DNA from: a bacterium
Lineage (GTDB): Bacteria; JAJVIF01; JAGGVT01
Assembly: GCA_021157815.1 (NCBI GenBank)
Contig: JAGGVT010000091.1
Span: forward strand, 1 to 16,101
Length of the DNA stretch: 16,101 bases
Direction: 5' to 3'
Part shown: positions 6,631-15,936 of the stretch, piece after piece
Layout: every line of letters starts with the position of its first letter
Numbering within the stretch: position 1 is the stretch's first letter
The notes under the pieces: model-generated
Database searches by the model: none
Told to the model about the DNA's origin: nothing
Seen by the model: only the letters and a program-made list of their open reading frames with translations
Position numbers and translations under genes: made by a program

Positions 6631-6702
6631 ATAATTTTATAAATAGAAATTTCGCTCTGAACACGATAGAATAAATATGTACAACAAATGAAGGTGAGAA
6701 AG

Positions 6703-7017
6703 ATGAAGAAGATTAATATTGATTTCAATAAGAAACAAATTAGCGAGTTTTGTCGCAAGTGGGAAATATCAAACCTGGCTCTCTTTGGTTCTGTGCTGAC
6801 TGATGAATTTGGTCCTGACAGCGACATTGATGTTCTTGTAACATTCGCTTCAGATGCAAAGCGAACACTGTTTGATCTTGTTCGGATGAAAGGAGAAATG
6901 GAAGAGATATTTAATCGTAGTGTGGATATTGTCAGCAAACGTGGTATTGAGTCCAGTAGAAATGTAATTCGTCGCAAGGAAATACTGTATTCTGCGGAGG
7001 ATATTTATGTCGCGTGA
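6703..7017 (+). CDS. mntA: MntA-like nucleotidyltransferase antitoxin
   Basis: A 104-residue minimal nucleotidyltransferase (MNT). The motif GS-x10-DxD is intact: G29-S30, then D41-I42-D43 (FGSVLTDEFGPDSDIDVLV). In characterised HepT-MntA modules the MNT protein is the antitoxin and poly-AMPylates a tyrosine of the HEPN toxin, silencing it with ATP as donor. The pairing here, with a HEPN gene starting 11 bp before this gene ends, fits that arrangement. I prefer ATG 6703 over ATG 6688 because AAGGTGAG (6691-6698) lies between them and would serve as its Shine-Dalgarno site. A TAGAAT at 6667-6672 is a possible -10 but has no clear -35. An MNT gene alone could have other roles; the pairing makes antitoxin the best call. 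Confidence 0.85.
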   Translation: MKKINIDFNKKQISEFCRKWEISNLALFGSVLTDEFGPDSDIDVLVTFASDAKRTLFDLVRMKGEMEEIFNRSVDIVSKRGIESSRNVIRRKEILYSAEDIYVA

Positions 7018-7306
7018 CAGAGGATATTTACTGGATATTTTAGAATCAGCAAAGATAATTCTCGCTCATTTGGGAGATAAGTCGCAGAGTGATTTTGCAG
7101 ATGATATTAAATGTCAGGATGCTGTTATCAGACGGTTGGAAATAATTGGAGAAGCGGCACGTCGAATTTCACAAACGAGCCGTGATGAGCATTCTCATTT
7201 GCCGTGGCAAGAGATGATTGGAATGCGCAATGTAATGATTCATGAATATGATGGTGTTGACCACGAAATTATCTGCAGACCATTCAAAACGATTTACCAA
7301 AACTAA
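7007..7306 (+). CDS. hepT: HepT-like HEPN toxin (DUF86), C-terminus frameshifted
   Basis: A 99-residue HEPN/DUF86 protein, the toxin partner of the MNT gene it overlaps by 11 bp. GGAGG at 6996-7000 sits six bases before the ATG. Helical sequence with RLEIIGEAARRIS (43-55) is typical of the family. The catalytic and target motif R-x4-H-x-Y is intact as RNVMIHEY (R74, H79, Y81): Arg and His form the RNase site, and Tyr is the residue AMPylated by MntA in studied systems. After II89 the reading frame diverges from the family. Adding one base after TG at 7274-7275 would give IIWQTIQNDLPKL in place of IICRPFKTIYQN. The toxin therefore keeps its active-site motif but has a scrambled last helix. It may be inactive, weakened, or an assembly artefact. 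Confidence 0.82.
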   Translation: MSRDRGYLLDILESAKIILAHLGDKSQSDFADDIKCQDAVIRRLEIIGEAARRISQTSRDEHSHLPWQEMIGMRNVMIHEYDGVDHEIICRPFKTIYQN

Positions 7307-7351: not shown

Positions 7352-9439
7352 CTACTTCTGCAGTTCCCTCTCAATTTCTTTCCCCAACGCCTGTATCTCC
7401 CTCGGTTTTCGGGCATCCATTGGATAAAATTGTTTTAGAATCTCCGCAGCTTCCAGATTTCTTCCAGCACGATGAAGCAACTTTGCCTGTTCATATCGCC
7501 AATCGAGAATCGTTGGTGAAATCACAGGATTTATCAAAAATTCATGCTCGATTATTTCATCAATCGATTTAAAAGCAGCATCAATCTTTCCCAGTTTCTC
7601 TTCAAGAGTAGCTCTGGTTGCCCAGTTCATCCATGACAGCGGATTAACCGATGTTGACAGTTCCATGAAATATAACGCTTTTTCAGTTTCGCCAAGTTCA
7701 CTCAATATTGATGCGTTGAATCTGAATATCTCATCGATCCTGACGAGTATGAAATCCTCCTCGACATTATGATGCTTCTCAAACATCTGTTTGAAATATT
7801 CCTCGCTGAAGTTCTCTTTGAAATATATGAAATTGCGTTGGATAGTTTCAAACCTCTGTCCGCTTTTTTGTATGCGGTATCCGAAATGATTTGGTTCAAA
7901 GCGATAGTCAATTTCGAGCATTTCAAGCGGTGGCGTGTTATAGAATGAGAAAAAGACCGGACGATTTGAGATGTTGTCATCGATGAAAGACTCGATTATC
8001 TCCTCTACGCCATAGCTTTTAAAAAACCTTCCTCGTGATGATGACCAATTCAGCGATTCATCCTCGAACGCTTTTTCATACAGCCAGTTTTTCCAAAACG
8101 CGTGTTCACCGAAAGTGGGGAAATGAGCCAGGACAGTTGTAACATCCTTTCGAACATCAAGAACCTTCTGAATGTAAAACAGAATGAATAGGTCGTCGAA
8201 ATTGCACAGCAGAATTGAGTTTTCATCGCACGATTCAAGAATGTTACGCCCATACCACTCAGCCAGATGATTGTCGCTTCTGTTGTTCATATTCCAATTA
8301 CCGGAGAGATTCCAGATCACACAAACAAAAGCAATCGCGCAAATTATCGGAAACAATCCCTGCCTGCTGATACTGATTTTTGTCGGAATTGTGTCAAGCG
8401 TGTATTTCGCGCCAACGGCGATAAACAACGCGCTTATCATAAAGACGGGAAGGTAATAGACATCCAGCTTGTAGAGATTGATAAATACAGGCCGAAGAGT
8501 TACAAGGAAAAATAAGACGTATGTCAAAGTAATTGCCGCGATTGCTTTCAAAGCAGGATTGGATTTCGATTTAAACGCGGCGATGAATCCGACAATGGAG
8601 AAAATAGCGCCCACGGGCGTTAACTCACGGGAAAATATCCCAAAGAGATATTTAAAATGATCGAGGAAATATCCCCGATTAACCTGAGTAAACGCTGGCG
8701 CGAAAAGCGTTTTGAAGAAATTCTGCATATTCGATGGATTACCCCAGTTAACCGCTGGCGATTTCGACGCTGCAATCGGCAGGTAGAGATAAAACGCGAA
8801 TCCAAGAATGAAAAACAATATGCAGAGCAGCCATCTGTTTAAGCCCTTTTTTAATGGGAGCCGCCCCGATTTAACCAGAAGCCAGATTCCAGCCGGGATT
8901 ATCAACAGCGATGTCTGGTGCGTTGTAAGCGCAAGCCCCGAAAGAAACGCGGCTGTGTATAGGAAATACCTCCTCTCACTTTTGGATGCCAGCACGATGA
9001 AGATAATCGCGGCGCATACCACAAGATTGTTCAGAGTATAAACCTCGGTTGTAACCGACTGCGACCAGTTTACATAGGAAAACGCAAAAACAAGGCATGA
9101 CACAAACGACAGCAGATACTCTTTGGTAACCAGAACAATCAAGCGATACAAAAGGACAATTGAAATTACGCCAAAAAGCGCGGTCATGAAATTCATTCGA
9201 ATCGCGGGATTATCTCCAATTGGAGCGTGTGAAAAAAAGTAACCAAGGAAAGTGAATAGTGGATAACCCGGTGCGTGTGGAACTCCCATGCTCCATGATG
9301 CCGCGATTAATTCACCCGAATCTCCAACATAAACTGTCGGGCACAATGTAAGAATATAGACAACGAAGCTTATCGCCGCAAGAGCAATCATGCCGAGTGT
9401 GAGTTTCCTGCGATTGCTATTTCCATCCGGTTCAGCCAT
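7352..9439 (-). CDS. DUF2723 multi-pass membrane glycosyltransferase-like protein
   Basis: A 695-residue integral membrane protein. The N-terminal half has about ten hydrophobic segments, the first at about 15-33. After it comes the DUF2723 signature GDSGELIAASWSMGVPHAPG (39-58), then YPL. This acidic loop after the first membrane helix matches the GT-C fold glycosyltransferases of the protein O-mannosyltransferase kind; the eukaryotic relative TMEM260 is an O-mannosyltransferase. The likely role is transfer of a sugar from a lipid-linked donor at the outer face of the inner membrane. The C-terminal ~290 residues are soluble, and the last 140 or so look like TPR-type helical repeats (EKALYFMELS, KIDAAFKSIDEI, GRNLEAAEILKQF). 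No Shine-Dalgarno site precedes the ATG, and a promoter lies so close that translation may be leaderless. Donor and acceptor are unknown. It converges on hepT with a 34-bp gap after the displaced hepT stop. Confidence 0.85.
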   Translation of the reverse strand: MAEPDGNSNRRKLTLGMIALAAISFVVYILTLCPTVYVGDSGELIAASWSMGVPHAPGYPLFTFLGYFFSHAPIGDNPAIRMNFMTALFGVISIVLLYRLIVLVTKEYLLSFVSCLVFAFSYVNWSQSVTTEVYTLNNLVVCAAIIFIVLASKSERRYFLYTAAFLSGLALTTHQTSLLIIPAGIWLLVKSGRLPLKKGLNRWLLCILFFILGFAFYLYLPIAASKSPAVNWGNPSNMQNFFKTLFAPAFTQVNRGYFLDHFKYLFGIFSRELTPVGAIFSIVGFIAAFKSKSNPALKAIAAITLTYVLFFLVTLRPVFINLYKLDVYYLPVFMISALFIAVGAKYTLDTIPTKISISRQGLFPIICAIAFVCVIWNLSGNWNMNNRSDNHLAEWYGRNILESCDENSILLCNFDDLFILFYIQKVLDVRKDVTTVLAHFPTFGEHAFWKNWLYEKAFEDESLNWSSSRGRFFKSYGVEEIIESFIDDNISNRPVFFSFYNTPPLEMLEIDYRFEPNHFGYRIQKSGQRFETIQRNFIYFKENFSEEYFKQMFEKHHNVEEDFILVRIDEIFRFNASILSELGETEKALYFMELSTSVNPLSWMNWATRATLEEKLGKIDAAFKSIDEIIEHEFLINPVISPTILDWRYEQAKLLHRAGRNLEAAEILKQFYPMDARKPREIQALGKEIERELQK

Positions 9440-9546: not shown

Positions 9547-9618
9547 AATAGTTTGTGCTTATGCGCAATGTGGTGTTGTGCATATAGGACATAGGACATT
9601 GAAAGCTAATCGCATGAT

Positions 9619-9691
9619 GGGCCGTTAGCTCAGTTGGTAGAGCACCTGACTTTTAATCAGGGGGTCACAGGTTCGAGCCCTGTACGGCCTA
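9619..9691 (+). tRNA. tRNA-Lys (TTT)
   Basis: A 73-nt cloverleaf. Acceptor stem GGGCCGT (9619-9625) pairs with ACGGCCT (9684-9690, first pair G-U), discriminator A9691. The D-arm has TTAGCTCAGTTGGTAGAGC. Anticodon stem CCTGA/TCAGG holds loop CTTTTAA, anticodon TTT. The T-loop contains GTTCGAGCC. CCA is not encoded, so a CCA-adding enzyme is required. Confidence 0.97.
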
Positions 9692-9698
9692 TAATCAT

Positions 9699-9773
9699 GC
9701 CCCCATCGTCTAGCTTGGCCTAGGACACCACCCTTTCACGGTGGCGACAGGGGTTCAAATCCCCTTGGGGGTA
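9699..9773 (+). tRNA. tRNA-Glu (TTC)
   Basis: A 75-nt cloverleaf only 7 bp after tRNA-Lys, certainly co-transcribed. Acceptor GCCCCCA (9699-9705) pairs with TGGGGGT (9766-9772), discriminator A9773. Anticodon stem CCACC/GGTGG holds loop CTTTCAC, anticodon TTC. The T-arm has GGGGTTCAAATCCCC. No CCA is encoded. A run of nine T (9776-9784) follows almost immediately. Confidence 0.97.
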
Positions 9774-9828
9774 TATTTTTTTTTGTTTTAAGCATCAAAG
9801 AAATATGCCGGATTGTTTTTATGGCTTC

Positions 9829-9858
9829 TTGCAATATCGATATCCTTTTGGATACAAT
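9829..9858 (+). promoter_or_regulatory. Likely promoter of tRNA-Asp, within a hairpin
   Basis: TTGCAA (9829-9834), an 18-bp spacer and TACAAT (9853-9858) place a start near 9865, about 22 bp before tRNA-Asp. The same bases form an imperfect palindrome (GCAATAT 9831-9837 with ATATTGC 9857-9863, plus inner pairs TATCC/GGATA around TTTT), which could instead be an operator or RNA hairpin. Confidence 0.5.
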
Positions 9859-9886
9859 ATTGCGCCTTAATTCCAGAGATAATTCT

Positions 9887-9960
9887 GGGCGCGTGGTCTA
9901 GCGGTTTAGGATGCCGGCCTGTCACGCCGGAGGTCGAGGGTTCAAATCCCTTCGCGCCCG
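9887..9960 (+). tRNA. tRNA-Asp (GTC)
   Basis: A 74-nt cloverleaf. Acceptor GGGCGCG (9887-9893) pairs with CGCGCCC (9953-9959), discriminator G9960 as expected for Asp. Anticodon stem CCGGC/GCCGG holds loop CTGTCAC, anticodon GTC. The T-arm has GAGGGTTCAAATCCCTTC. CCA is not encoded; eight T (9961-9968) follow directly after the discriminator. Confidence 0.97.
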
Positions 9961-9978
9961 TTTTTTTTGAAATACATT

Positions 9979-10000
9979 CCGGGGGAAACCTCGGTTTTTT
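9979..10000 (+). terminator. Intrinsic terminator after tRNA-Asp
   Basis: CCGGGG (9979-9984) pairs with CCTCGG (9989-9994, one G-T pair) around a GAAA tetraloop, followed by six T (9995-10000). A compact, strong rho-independent terminator placed between tRNA-Asp and tRNA-Phe. Confidence 0.8.
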
Positions 10001-10026
10001 AAAATGTAAATATATTCTTAAGCCTT

Positions 10027-10099
<73 letters not shown>

Positions 10100-10122
10100 T
10101 TCTTTATTGGTTAAAAAGATTG

Positions 10123-11001: not shown

Positions 11002-11427
11002 ATGAATGAAAAGATGGAAATATCGTGGAAAGCGCATCCGCTGGTAGATGATTTCCCAAAATCAATCGGCGCGATTTTCCTTGTCATTGTGTTTTCCATC
11101 GCGTTTGGATATTTCTTTGCCAGTCCGGGAATAGGGGGATTATCCTTTATCATTCTCTTTCTCGCAACTCTGACTTATTTCGTCCCCGTTTATTACCATA
11201 TCGATGAGCAAAAACTGACAATCAAATTCCTGTTTCTGAAAACGATTCGTCCTTTGCGAAAATTTAAGAATTACTACCACAATTCAACCGGAGTAAATCT
11301 TTCCACTTTTTCAGCTCCATCCCGACTGGATGCTTTTCGAGGAAACTACCTAAGGTTCAACCATAACCAAAACGAGGTGCTTGAATTTCTCAAAAACGTG
11401 ATTCAAATAGGGGAAGGTGATGAGTAA
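11002..11427 (+). CDS. Two-TM membrane protein of unknown function, PH-like
   Basis: A 141-residue protein with a short N-terminus containing WKAHPL, two adjacent membrane helices (about 21-40 and 45-64) and a cytosolic C-terminal part. The layout, WxxHP before a TM hairpin followed by YYHIDEQKLTIKFLFLKTIR, resembles membrane-anchored bacterial PH-domain proteins, in which a TM pair precedes a beta-rich module. The later LSTFSAPSRLDAFRGNYLRF segment reads as a conserved block, and I recall similar proteins in other bacteria, but I cannot name the family. No Shine-Dalgarno site; the extended -10 lies immediately upstream, suggesting leaderless translation. It shares one base with the next gene (TAATG), so the two are translationally coupled. 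Function not assigned. Confidence 0.7.
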   Translation: MNEKMEISWKAHPLVDDFPKSIGAIFLVIVFSIAFGYFFASPGIGGLSFIILFLATLTYFVPVYYHIDEQKLTIKFLFLKTIRPLRKFKNYYHNSTGVNLSTFSAPSRLDAFRGNYLRFNHNQNEVLEFLKNVIQIGEGDE

Positions 11428-11909
11428 TGAAAGAGGAAGATAAAAACATCAACGAAAAAAAGGATAAAACTCCTGAAAAACGAGGATGGGAGAAATTCAA
11501 AAGTGAATGGGATAACGCATTCAACATGAATGTTCCCGAAGGTGAGTTAAACGAAAATAACATCAAGCTTTTAAATGATGTAGCGCTCGACATTGTGAAT
11601 CGAGGCATGGCTGCGCCAGCGATTATGTTCCTCGTATCAATAAAGCCTGTCTCATTCCTTATGGCTCAGGGAATGCAGTTTGTAAAGCCTTTCATGCCGG
11701 GAATTTCCAATGATACAAACTCAAAGGAATTCGCAAACAGATTTATGGTCTCGACATTAATTTCCAATCCTGCCGCATATTCAAGATTCGCGATTCTTAT
11801 GGAAAACCGTGACGCTGTCGAAATGATGATAGACGCGCTTGAAAAACATGAGGATGAGAGAGCAAAAAAGGAAAGGCGGAAAAAACGTCAAGACAAAGAA
11901 AAGAAGTGA
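11427..11909 (+). CDS. Conserved-looking protein of unknown function
   Basis: A 160-residue protein starting at the overlapping TAATG (11425-11429), with GAAGGTGATG upstream as a likely Shine-Dalgarno region. The first ~45 residues and the last ~20 (RAKKERRKKRQDKEKK) are highly charged. In between are helical, partly hydrophobic segments: IVNRGMAAPAIMFLVSIKPV (56-75), then the MAQGMQFVKPF block, and MENRDAVEMMIDALEK (125-140). The pattern PAI-x-FL-x-x-x-KP-x-x-x-x-x-xQ followed by a C-terminal ENRD-x-VE block reminds me of small proteins found in diverse anaerobes and near B12-enzyme-related genes, but this is memory, not evidence. The segments are too short and polar for a confident membrane call; peripheral association with the PH-like partner is plausible. 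Function not assigned. Confidence 0.65.
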   Translation: MKEEDKNINEKKDKTPEKRGWEKFKSEWDNAFNMNVPEGELNENNIKLLNDVALDIVNRGMAAPAIMFLVSIKPVSFLMAQGMQFVKPFMPGISNDTNSKEFANRFMVSTLISNPAAYSRFAILMENRDAVEMMIDALEKHEDERAKKERRKKRQDKEKK

Positions 11910-11933: not shown

Positions 11934-12533
11934 CTATTTAGTGCACAAATGCAATGGCTCTATTTCAGGAAGGCAGAATCGCTTTCTCTCTTCATCAGGT
12001 ATTTCATTAAGATAGTCATCAAGTTTAACTGTAAACCCGGCCTCCTTAAGCCTCTCCTGATAATCCTGATAACCGTAAAGCCTGACGTGCGCCCAATGGC
12101 CATACACTTTCTGGCGTTCCTCAGGAGTGGTAATTGACGGGTCATCAATAGTTTCCCTGCTATGGATATCATACGGAACTTCCAGAATCGACCACCCACC
12201 CGGTTTAAGGATTCGATATACCTCACTCATTGCTTTTCTATCATCAATGACATGCTCGAAAACGTGATAGCAGATAATGCAGTCAAAATGATTATCGGGA
12301 AAAGGAATATCTGTGATATCAAAATTTATTGTGGCAATCGGTGATGAGAGATCACCACTTGTGTAGTCAAGATTGGAACACGTTTTGAATATATTTTGCA
12401 GGACTTCATTTGGCGCGATGTACAGAACTTTCAAATTGTCAGAAAAAAACCTTGTCCTGTTCCTAAGATATAGCACCAGAAGACGATGACGCTCAAGACT
12501 GCCACATGCCGGACACAACACGTTTGGGCGCAT
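11934..12533 (-). CDS. SAM-dependent methyltransferase (type 11), N-terminus frameshifted
   Basis: A class I methyltransferase. In the intact frame CPACGSLERHRLL leads the catalytic domain, with KVLYIAPNE as motif I region, FDITDIPFPDNHFDCIICYH as the acidic and motif II region, then RILKPGGWSILEVP, typical of Methyltransf_11. ATG 12533 is the first start in this frame, but homology continues upstream: codons before it read FECPCCGG...GWLLPYGSE, completing a CPCC/CPAC Cys4 zinc-binding module known from this methyltransferase type, and the frame is open to a stop at 12624-12626 without any ATG, GTG or TTG. The natural start is therefore most likely in another frame at 12679. The substrate is unknown; related proteins are often found in surface-polysaccharide loci. 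Confidence 0.82.
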   Translation of the reverse strand: MRPNVLCPACGSLERHRLLVLYLRNRTRFFSDNLKVLYIAPNEVLQNIFKTCSNLDYTSGDLSSPIATINFDITDIPFPDNHFDCIICYHVFEHVIDDRKAMSEVYRILKPGGWSILEVPYDIHSRETIDDPSITTPEERQKVYGHWAHVRLYGYQDYQERLKEAGFTVKLDDYLNEIPDEERKRFCLPEIEPLHLCTK

Positions 12534-12967: not shown

Positions 12968-14800
12968 ATGAGTGAGAAACCTGAGAAACTGGATGTTATC
13001 CTTGCGACTGACTGCGGTTCAACAACAACTAAAGCCATCCTGATTGAAAAAAAAGGTGAAACATACCGCCAGACATATAGAGGCGAGGCTCCAACAACTG
13101 TTGAGGCGCCTTTCGAGGATGTTACCAAGGGTGTGCTTAATTCGATTCAGGAGATAGAGGATTTAAGCGGACGTACATTTCTTGATGGCGACAAAATCAT
13201 AATGCCATCGGATGGAGATGTGGGAGCTGACGCATATATTTCCACATCATCAGCAGGTGGAGGGCTTCAGATGATGGTCGCCGGAGCGGTTTATCAAATG
13301 ACCGGCGAAAGCGCGCAAAGAGCCGCGCTTGGCGCTGGCGCGATTGTCATGGATATCCTCGCTTGCAACGACAAACGCCTTACACATGAAAAAATCGAAC
13401 GCATACGGCAACTTAGGCCGGACATGATTCTGCTTTCCGGCGGAACGGATGGCGGCACTATCAGCCATGTTGTTGAACTTGCGGAAGTTATCGGAGCGGC
13501 TGACCCAAAGCCCCGTCTCGGTATAAGCTACAAACTGCCTGTGATTTTCGCTGGAAACAAGGATGCGCGTGATGTTGTCACACAGGAACTTGGCGAAAAA
13601 ACCGCGCTTACAATTACGGATAATATCAGGCCTGTTCTTGAAAGGGAAAATCTTATGCCGGCAAGGCTAAAGATTCAGGATTTATTCCTTGAACATGTTA
13701 TGGCTCAGGCGCCGGGATATAAAAAACTCATGGAGTGGACATCCGCCCCTATCATGCCAACACCGGGAGCGGTGGGGCTTATCATTTCAACTATTTCAGA
13801 AAAATTGAATTTCAATGTTGTGGGAGTCGATATCGGCGGCGCTACAACGGATATCTTTTCAAGTTTCGAAACAGTATTCAACAGAACTGTCAGCGCGAAC
13901 CTTGGGATGAGTTATTCCGTATCAAACGTGCTTACTGAAGCGACATTGCCGAATGTAATGCGATGGGTGCCGTTTGATATCGATGAACAAGACCTTAGAA
14001 ACAGAATCAAGAACAAAATGATCCGGCCAACCACGATTCCGCAGGAACTCAGCGAGTTAATTATTGAACATGGCCTTGCGCGTGAGGCTTTAAGGCTTGC
14101 GTTTGTATCGCATAAACTTCTCGCGGTCGGATTAAAAGGCGTTCAGCAGGAAAGAAGCATTTCAGACGCTTTTGACCAGTCTGGCACAGGAGCGTCGCTT
14201 ATCCAAATGAAAAGCCTTGATATGCTGGTCGGTTCCGGTGGAGTGCTTTCTCACGCGCCGAGGCGGCAGCAGGCCATGCTGATGATGATTGACTCATTCC
14301 AGCCGGAGTGCGTAACTTTCATGACTGTTGATTCAATTTTCATGATGCCACATCTTGGTGTGCTGACAACAATCAGCGACAAAGCCGCTACTGAAGTGTT
14401 TGAAAAGGACTGCATAATATATCTTGGGACTTGTGTTGCTCCGATCGGAAACACAAAAGAAGGTGACAAGGTTATGGATTATCATATGACAATGCCGGAT
14501 GGCAAGGTCATTTCAGAATCTATACATTATGGGGATTTAAAACTTCACAAACTTGGCCTGAATGATGAAGGATTGCCTATCGAGGTGACATTAGACATGC
14601 ATCCAACTCGCCATTATGACGTAGGTGAAGGCAACGGAAAATCCGTAAAGAAGAAGGTGAGGGGCGGAGTTGTCGGTATTGTCATGGACGCGCGAGGGCG
14701 TCCCTTGACAACCAATCCTGACAGAAAAAAGCGAATTGAACAGATAAATAAATGGGCAACAGAAATGGATTGTTATCCTCAACCAGGAGGTGGTGAGTAA
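12968..14800 (+). CDS. MutL/GlmL family ATPase (glutamate mutase L-type)
   Basis: A 610-residue protein of the MutL (GlmL) family, ASKHA-fold ATPases (actin/Hsp70/sugar-kinase fold) associated with adenosylcobalamin-dependent mutases and thought to act as reactivating chaperones; unrelated to the mismatch-repair MutL. Marks are phosphate-1 loop LATDCGSTTTKAI (about 12-24), ILLSGGTDGGTISHV (about 155-169), phosphate-2 loop VGVDIGGATTDIF (about 285-297), the family block VGSGGVLSHAPRR, then DSIFMMPHLGVL. The start is uncertain: an upstream GTG (12917) and ATG (12947) are in frame, but the family begins just before the first beta strand, favouring ATG 12968, though with no clear Shine-Dalgarno site. 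It overlaps the downstream gene by one base. No B12 enzyme subunit is present in the window, so its client cannot be inferred locally. Confidence 0.9.
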   Translation: MSEKPEKLDVILATDCGSTTTKAILIEKKGETYRQTYRGEAPTTVEAPFEDVTKGVLNSIQEIEDLSGRTFLDGDKIIMPSDGDVGADAYISTSSAGGGLQMMVAGAVYQMTGESAQRAALGAGAIVMDILACNDKRLTHEKIERIRQLRPDMILLSGGTDGGTISHVVELAEVIGAADPKPRLGISYKLPVIFAGNKDARDVVTQELGEKTALTITDNIRPVLERENLMPARLKIQDLFLEHVMAQAPGYKKLMEWTSAPIMPTPGAVGLIISTISEKLNFNVVGVDIGGATTDIFSSFETVFNRTVSANLGMSYSVSNVLTEATLPNVMRWVPFDIDEQDLRNRIKNKMIRPTTIPQELSELIIEHGLAREALRLAFVSHKLLAVGLKGVQQERSISDAFDQSGTGASLIQMKSLDMLVGSGGVLSHAPRRQQAMLMMIDSFQPECVTFMTVDSIFMMPHLGVLTTISDKAATEVFEKDCIIYLGTCVAPIGNTKEGDKVMDYHMTMPDGKVISESIHYGDLKLHKLGLNDEGLPIEVTLDMHPTRHYDVGEGNGKSVKKKVRGGVVGIVMDARGRPLTTNPDRKKRIEQINKWATEMDCYPQPGGGE

Positions 14801-15936
14801 TGGCACACGCATACACACCTGGCTTGAGAGTTACACGTTCCACCGTTTTACAAAAAGAGAGAATCCTTCCTCTTAAGGGCGACGTGGTTGTGAAAGAGGG
14901 AGATGTTCTTACAAGCGATGTTGTCGTTGCACGGACAGATCTGCCCGGTTCAGTTAAAGTACTGAAAAACGTTGTCAACCTTCTGGGATGCGATCCTGAT
15001 GAAATCCACGACTACATGCTTGTTAAGACAGGTGAGCCTATTAAGAAAGGTGATATCATCGCGCAAAACAAACCTTTCCTCGGTTTAACATTCCTGCGGA
15101 CAAGAATACCCAGCCCCGTTGATGGCACTGTCGAAAAAGTCAGCGAAATTACAGGGCAGATTCTTTTCAGGGAACCTCCGATACCTGTTGAGATGGTTGC
15201 ATACATTGATGGAAAAGTTGTTGAAATCGTGCCCAAAGAGGGTGTGGTGATGGAAACAACAGCGACTTTCATTCAAGGCATATTCGGTGTCGGCGGTGAA
15301 AGCTGGGGCGACTTGATAATGGTTGCGACTAGTCCGGATGATGTTCTCACTCCTGACCAGATAACGCCGGCAGTAAAAGACAAAATCGTGGTTGGCGGAA
15401 GCCTGATTACCTATGAAGCTTTTGAAGCCGCAAAAAAACATGGCGCGAGGGGAATTATCAGCGGTGGCCTGAATGATTCAGACCTTAGAAAACTCCTCGG
15501 ATTTGATATAGGTGTCGCTATTACAGGACATGAGAAAATAGGTTTGACAATCATTGTCACCGAGGGTTTTGGTGAAATCGCAATGGCTGAGAAGACATTC
15601 AAACTACTGAAGGAGCGAAATGGCCACAAGGCAAGCATTAACGGCGCGACTCAAATTCGCGCGGGTGTTATAAGGCCTGAAATTGTTATTCCCTGGGATG
15701 GCGATGTTGACGTTTCTATCGAAAGTGCGGATGCTGAACGCGGCGGCATGGGGATCGGCGATCCGGTTCGAATTATCCGAGCGCCTTACTTTGGTGTGAT
15801 TGGCGAAGTTACCGAGCTCCCAAGCGAATTGCATATTGTTGAATCCGGCACGAAAGTCAGGGTACTAAAAGTGAAATTCAAGGACGGCAAGGAGTTTCTC
15901 GTACCGCGCGCAAACGTTGAAATCATAGAGGATTAA
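14800..15936 (+). CDS. MutL-coupled protein, barrel-sandwich-like N-term and KOW-like C-term
   Basis: A 378-residue protein of unknown function, translationally coupled to mutL (TAATG overlap, with AGGAGGTG seven bases before the ATG), so equimolar co-production is likely. The N-terminal ~140 residues have alternating PLKGDVVVKEGDVLTSDVVV and GEPIKKGDIIAQ, then IPSPVDGTVEKVSEITGQIL, segments that read like a biotinyl/lipoyl or barrel-sandwich hybrid fold. A middle alpha/beta part has GVGGESWGDLI (about 162-172) and KIVVGGSLITYEAFEAAKKH, then GARGIISGG (about 195-222). The C-terminal ~60 residues (GDPVRIIRAPYFGVIGEVTE, later DGKEFLVPRANVEIIE) fit a KOW/NusG-like SH3 barrel. No signal peptide, membrane segment or classical catalytic motif. 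No lipoyl/biotin-type Lys motif is evident. I recall such proteins beside mutL in other bacteria but cannot verify this. Confidence 0.8.
   Translation: MAHAYTPGLRVTRSTVLQKERILPLKGDVVVKEGDVLTSDVVVARTDLPGSVKVLKNVVNLLGCDPDEIHDYMLVKTGEPIKKGDIIAQNKPFLGLTFLRTRIPSPVDGTVEKVSEITGQILFREPPIPVEMVAYIDGKVVEIVPKEGVVMETTATFIQGIFGVGGESWGDLIMVATSPDDVLTPDQITPAVKDKIVVGGSLITYEAFEAAKKHGARGIISGGLNDSDLRKLLGFDIGVAITGHEKIGLTIIVTEGFGEIAMAEKTFKLLKERNGHKASINGATQIRAGVIRPEIVIPWDGDVDVSIESADAERGGMGIGDPVRIIRAPYFGVIGEVTELPSELHIVESGTKVRVLKVKFKDGKEFLVPRANVEIIED

Follow-up and report, generated by a model that had tools for sequence, protein, structure and literature searches.

A MutL-family ATPase and its three-domain partner in a recurrent eight-gene set of mostly membrane proteins

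An ATPase gene of the MutL/GlmL family and the gene for its 378-aa, three-domain partner (here named PART) are part of an undescribed set of eight genes, most of which encode membrane proteins. As judged by sequence comparison, this set recurs over well over a dozen phyla, also where no B12 mutase is detectable. We refer to the set, in its conserved gene order c27, c23, MutL, PART, DUF6754, c9, c14, c10, as the DUF6754 system. The stretch of DNA analysed here, 16,101 nucleotides in full and called the window, carries c27, c23, MutL and PART, and the contig stops after PART. What might the pair do? The reading that we favour, at slightly better than even chances, is that MutL and PART form a cytosolic module, ATPase plus adaptor, in a membrane (envelope) machine that has not been described before. 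The features of the window that bear on this are the following.

11002..11427, + strand: c27 family, 141 aa, two predicted membrane segments (profile built here, E 9e-47)
11427..11909, + strand: c23 family, 160 aa, one hydrophobic stretch (profile built here, E 5e-35); it adjoins MutL in many loci
12968..14800, + strand: MutL/GlmL-family ASKHA ATPase, 610 aa, ATG at 12968, stop at 14798-14800, ASKHA core at residues ~11-482
14414..14797, + strand: C-terminal extension of MutL past the Pfam domain, ~130 aa, present in the aligned clade members
14785..14802, + strand: AGGAGG Shine-Dalgarno site and TAATG stop/start overlap coupling MutL and PART, read directly
14800..15936, + strand: PART, 378 aa, three domains, ATG at 14800
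14800..14832, + strand: N-terminal peptide of PART, MAHAYTPGLxV, nearly invariant
14833..15189, + strand: barrel-sandwich-like N-terminal domain of PART, residues ~12-130, from sub-threshold NQRA_N/RnfC_N matches and a mostly beta model
15193..15699, + strand: predicted central swivelling beta/beta/alpha domain of PART with RraA/MenG-like fold, residues ~132-300, from VIA-align to RraA
15745..15933, + strand: predicted KOW/Tudor/SH3-like C-terminal domain of PART, residues ~316-378, from structure comparison

The MutL-PART pair

Is the first gene of the pair a true GlmL? An earlier note on this DNA had called its product a GlmL-type ASKHA ATPase, and the family is right: Pfam MutL (PF13941) matches residues 11-482 of the 610-aa protein with E 9e-122 and 407.5 bits, where the gathering score is 27. 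The phosphate-1 (TDCGSTTTKA), phosphate-2 (VDIGGATTD) and adenosine (GSGG) motifs of ASKHA ATPases show little or no variation among 38 homologues. Yet the protein stays under the curated GlmL cut-offs. It scores 223.2 bits with the GlmL equivalog NF040745, less than half of the cut-off of 475, 194.5 bits with the Or-4 equivalog NF040744 (cut-off 600), and 156 bits with the GlmL subfamily profile (cut-off 204). Ten further MutL proteins, namely nine clade members and a second MutL of Coatesbacteria, are also below the NF040745 cut-off, at 211-237 bits. Since all curated GlmL/Or-4 cut-offs are missed, the window protein should be regarded as a MutL-family ATPase and not as a curated B12-mutase accessory protein. 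MutL genes of this kind are likely annotated as glutamate-mutase accessory proteins all the same, so that metagenome studies may infer a B12-dependent glutamate fermentation that is absent. A pattern scan gave no viral contig bearing MutL.

The two genes are joined by TAATG with an internal Shine-Dalgarno site, just as had been noted. AGGAGG at 14785-14790 lies 9 nt before the PART start, and TAATG at 14798-14802 gives a one-base overlap of the genes.

For PART, no Pfam or NCBIfam model scores above its own cut-off, and a PDB sequence search gave no credible match to it or to MutL. An AlphaFold2 model was built from 62 sequences (mean pLDDT 85, pTM 0.69). The two end domains proposed in the earlier note, barrel-sandwich-like at the N-terminus and KOW-like at the C-terminus, both find support here, while a middle domain had escaped it and no described family is matched. 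The N-terminal domain is mostly beta in the model and gives matches under the gathering score to NQRA_N (PF05896; E 5e-4, 20.6 bits against 25) and RnfC_N (16.2 against 25.6 bits); PART as an NqrA/RnfC subunit was rejected on these scores. The central domain appears RraA/MenG-like, with Z 9.6 over 130 residues to RraA 1j3l (VIA-align; rmsd 4.3, identity about 12%), and many of the invariant residues in the family alignment fall in it. The C-terminal residues 316-378 are predicted to adopt a KOW/SH3-like fold: they match KOW domains of ribosomal proteins, Spt5 and NusG with Z 8.3-9.1 over 51-58 residues, as they match many SH3-like domains. These comparisons, and those for DUF6754 below, were each made with one predicted model, and a second look with Foldseek gave matches to single domains only, none over the whole length of either protein. 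The start of PART has low confidence in the model; because the peptide MAHAYTPGLxV is nearly invariant despite this, it suggests a docking peptide.

How widely is the pair kept together? Among 84,980 species genomes scanned, 492 candidate relatives of PART came up, and the top 80 of the 492 were examined; these are the closest relatives, biased to few lineages, nearly all from metagenome-assembled genomes, with organism names taken from the record titles. They are full-length and 52-59% identical to PART, and between them represent well over a dozen phyla, mostly uncultured. The pair is conserved across genomes, with a same-strand MutL gene upstream of PART in 40 of the 80 loci, mostly less than 200 bases away; the other 40 belong to Poribacteria (34), WOR-3 (5) and one other bin. 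MutL was found in all 16 PART genomes searched, 13 times unlinked. In 15 of these it is of the same clade at 63-68% identity, and the 16th is a contig-end fragment with 50% identity over 189 aa. A same-class genome that is 99% complete lacks both genes. What is more, the pairwise distances of MutL and PART are correlated (r 0.94, 50 pairs, reached in 0/2000 permutations, with shared species history still included). Thus the adjacency in many phyla, the co-occurrence when unlinked, the co-absence and the parallel divergence all bear out a dedicated pair, as the earlier note had proposed, and at the level of sequence the conservation of the pair is far beyond chance. No plasmid copy of PART was found.

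There are also loci with unusual arrangements of the pair. A Coatesbacteria chromosome has a second, divergent MutL (L120, 7733-9835, 37% identical), whose C-terminus carries an in-frame segment similar to PART; no mutase gene was recognised beside it. The segment resembles PART residues 19-46; it is short and lies directly before a 100-N assembly gap, so that it is suggestive of a MutL-PART fusion but not proof. A Bacillota bin (L057, 114-11122) carries two MutL-PART pairs, of which one has diverged (53% and about 41% identical to those of the window), with a single DUF6754 block upstream of both.

The eight-gene set

The pair is not alone, which the earlier note had missed: together with c27 and c23, which lie upstream in the window, it is part of the eight-gene set. 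The set was defined by clustering the neighbour genes and then searching with profiles built from the clusters, and its membership is well supported by the gene neighbourhoods. All eight genes are contiguous in Latescibacterota, Eisenbacteria, Gemmatimonadota and a genome of the same class (L060), and a contiguous set without c27 is found in Planctomycetota and Elusimicrobia. In Poribacteria and WOR-3 the genes of the pair and the set are scattered in the genome, and therefore operon support for the link is missing there. Profile-profile comparison detected no mutual homology among the eight families.

The window's own genome has MutL, PART and DUF6754 together. Its DUF6754-c9-c14-c10 operon is on another contig, C175, where it is preceded by a gene transcribed divergently, which makes it a locus separate from the window. 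DUF6754 is present in 25 of 26 other PART genomes, including Poribacteria with unlinked PART and MutL; the sole exception is a Nitrospirae bin, possibly incomplete. Among 14 control genomes DUF6754 was found in none.

In linked loci, the DUF6754 companion matches PF20539 with E about 1e-113 or better. The model of the L003 protein (mean pLDDT 79) has a signal-like helix first and then an FN3 domain; after these it predicts a Rossmann-like domain between two membrane helices, the second of which closes the chain. The best match of the Rossmann-like domain is Sir2 1s7g (Z 11.4, 145 residues, rmsd 3.8). From the charge distribution we infer that the FN3 domain is outside and the Rossmann-like domain inside. 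The c9 and c10 proteins have several hydrophobic segments, predicted to be transmembrane, and c14 has segments at both ends. A literature search for PF13941, PF20539, TIGR01319 or DUF6754 found no paper naming them, with most subscription journals outside the search, and a search for a gene cluster containing MutL gave unrelated work only.

Some further observations concern the surroundings of these genes. A methyltransferase gene on the minus strand (11934-12533) separates c23 from MutL in the window, and the two are adjacent in L060. The DUF6754-c9-c14 block occurs twice, around or after the pair, in two loci (L059, L067), and one Zixibacteria genome has up to five DUF6754 genes. The window also holds a gene for a TMEM260-like (PF11028) membrane protein at 7352-9439. 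In four WOR-3 loci (L017, L037, L046, L074) PART is immediately preceded, no more than 10 bases away, by a gene of this kind; as it is a neighbour in no other locus, it was set aside as a member of the set. At 6688-7306 the genes for an MntA-like nucleotidyltransferase (PF01909) and, after it, a HepT-like ribonuclease (PF01934) probably make up a toxin-antitoxin pair of the MNT/HEPN type, and at 9618-10100 there are four consecutive tRNA genes (Lys, Glu, Asp, Phe).

Possible roles of the pair

How would such a module work? We suppose that MutL and PART bind each other, and that PART would bridge MutL and one of the membrane subunits, either DUF6754, by way of its cytosolic Rossmann-like domain, or a different one; the invariant N-terminal peptide of PART may make the contact. 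Binding and hydrolysis of ATP by the ASKHA core could then reshape the complex and in this way assemble, gate or remodel the membrane part. The c27 and c23 proteins would be small accessory parts, while DUF6754, c9, c14 and c10 would make up the membrane complex acted on. A search for experimentally established functions of the membrane parts gave none, so that the mechanism by which MutL-PART may act on them rests on analogy.

Could the pair instead serve a B12 enzyme? The earlier note had seen no B12 mutase gene in the window, and none is seen there. It had left two openings: the pair might reactivate a distant mutase, or it might be an ATPase machine with a different client. By the former, MutL-PART would act as chaperone to an adenosylcobalamin-dependent mutase encoded at another place in the genome, just as GlmL/MutL is described as the chaperone that reactivates glutamate mutase (PMC4682846). 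The place of MutL in PF13941 agrees with this, and so do two genes for the large subunit of methylmalonyl-CoA mutase (MCM) and a B12-binding ORF of 143 aa in the window's own genome. However, the glutamate mutase E subunit (PF06368, tested in that genome only) is absent from it, and the MutL scores are far under all NCBIfam GlmL/Or-4 cut-offs. Moreover, of 29 genomes that carry the pair, 15 have no MCM, and six complete chromosomes (G004-G008, G010) are among these 15. One of the six, G004, has just two proteins with a B12-binding domain (PF02310): MetH, and a methyltransferase-type corrinoid protein that combines B12-binding and B12-binding_2 domains. For mutases that bear PF02310 the reactivase reading is thereby contradicted in G004; the search was by PF02310, which diol-dehydratase-type enzymes lack, and so these were outside it. 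With MCM missing in so many pair genomes and G004 left with B12 proteins of the MetH and methyltransferase types, reactivation of a B12 mutase is unlikely as the conserved role of the pair, and we give a distant mutase as its client very little probability. The second opening, an ATPase machine with some other client, fares better and finds support. MetH and corrinoid proteins of the methyltransferase type are themselves present in complete pair chromosomes, and the pair might reactivate one of these by ATP. But such genes were never seen as neighbours, they are common across bacteria, and the membrane block would be left unexplained, which makes this the least probable of the readings weighed here.

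A soluble ATP-dependent enzyme of the hydantoinase/oxoprolinase or acetone-carboxylase type, whose product feeds the membrane proteins, would fit the invariant residues in the central domain of PART and a weak match of MutL to Hydantoinase_A (E 1.4e-4). That match is under the Pfam cut-off and is to be expected inside the ASKHA superfamily, and metabolic enzymes are not among the constant neighbours; we consider such an enzyme unlikely. Slightly less likely again is a regulator related to nucleic acids, in line with the KOW-mediated contact that the earlier note had raised: PART would touch RNA, an RNase or a helicase with its KOW and RraA-like domains, and MutL would be the ATP-driven switch. 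Both folds are indicated in PART, but folds alone reveal no function, a similar SH3-like fold being found also in the photosystem I subunit PsaE, and the constant companions are membrane proteins with no nucleic-acid proteins among the strongest. A role in anti-phage defence was rejected, as PADLOC gave no match.

The envelope machine with MutL-PART as its ATPase-adaptor module thus remains our preferred reading. We propose tentatively, as a possibility short of even chances, that many uncultured bacterial phyla have, as a core component, an undescribed ATP-driven envelope machine powered by an ATPase repurposed from a B12-chaperone family. The sequences of the set are conserved to the degree that is usual for core functions, and the set offers a testable, unstudied membrane system common to Latescibacterota, Poribacteria, WOR-3, Eisenbacteria, Zixibacteria, some Planctomycetota and others.

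Comparison with known systems

The nearest known protein is GlmL/MutL, the methylaspartate mutase accessory protein (NF040745), which shares the ASKHA core at residues 11-482. In contrast to it, the window MutL has some 130 additional aa at the C-terminus and no mutase neighbour, and it goes with PART and the DUF6754 block. The Or-4/GlmL-related protein of ornithine degradation (NF040744) is of the same ATPase family, but no ornithine aminomutase is recognised alongside the MutL described here. The membrane companion belongs to the DUF6754 family (PF20539) itself. The domains of PART are predicted to resemble RraA/MenG, KOW and the NqrA/RnfC barrel-sandwich in fold, while the three-domain whole fits no family above its cut-off. 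PilM, FtsA and the diol-dehydratase reactivases are ASKHA proteins that act on partner complexes. The proposed action of MutL on a membrane complex would be of the same kind, by an analogy drawn without sequence comparison.
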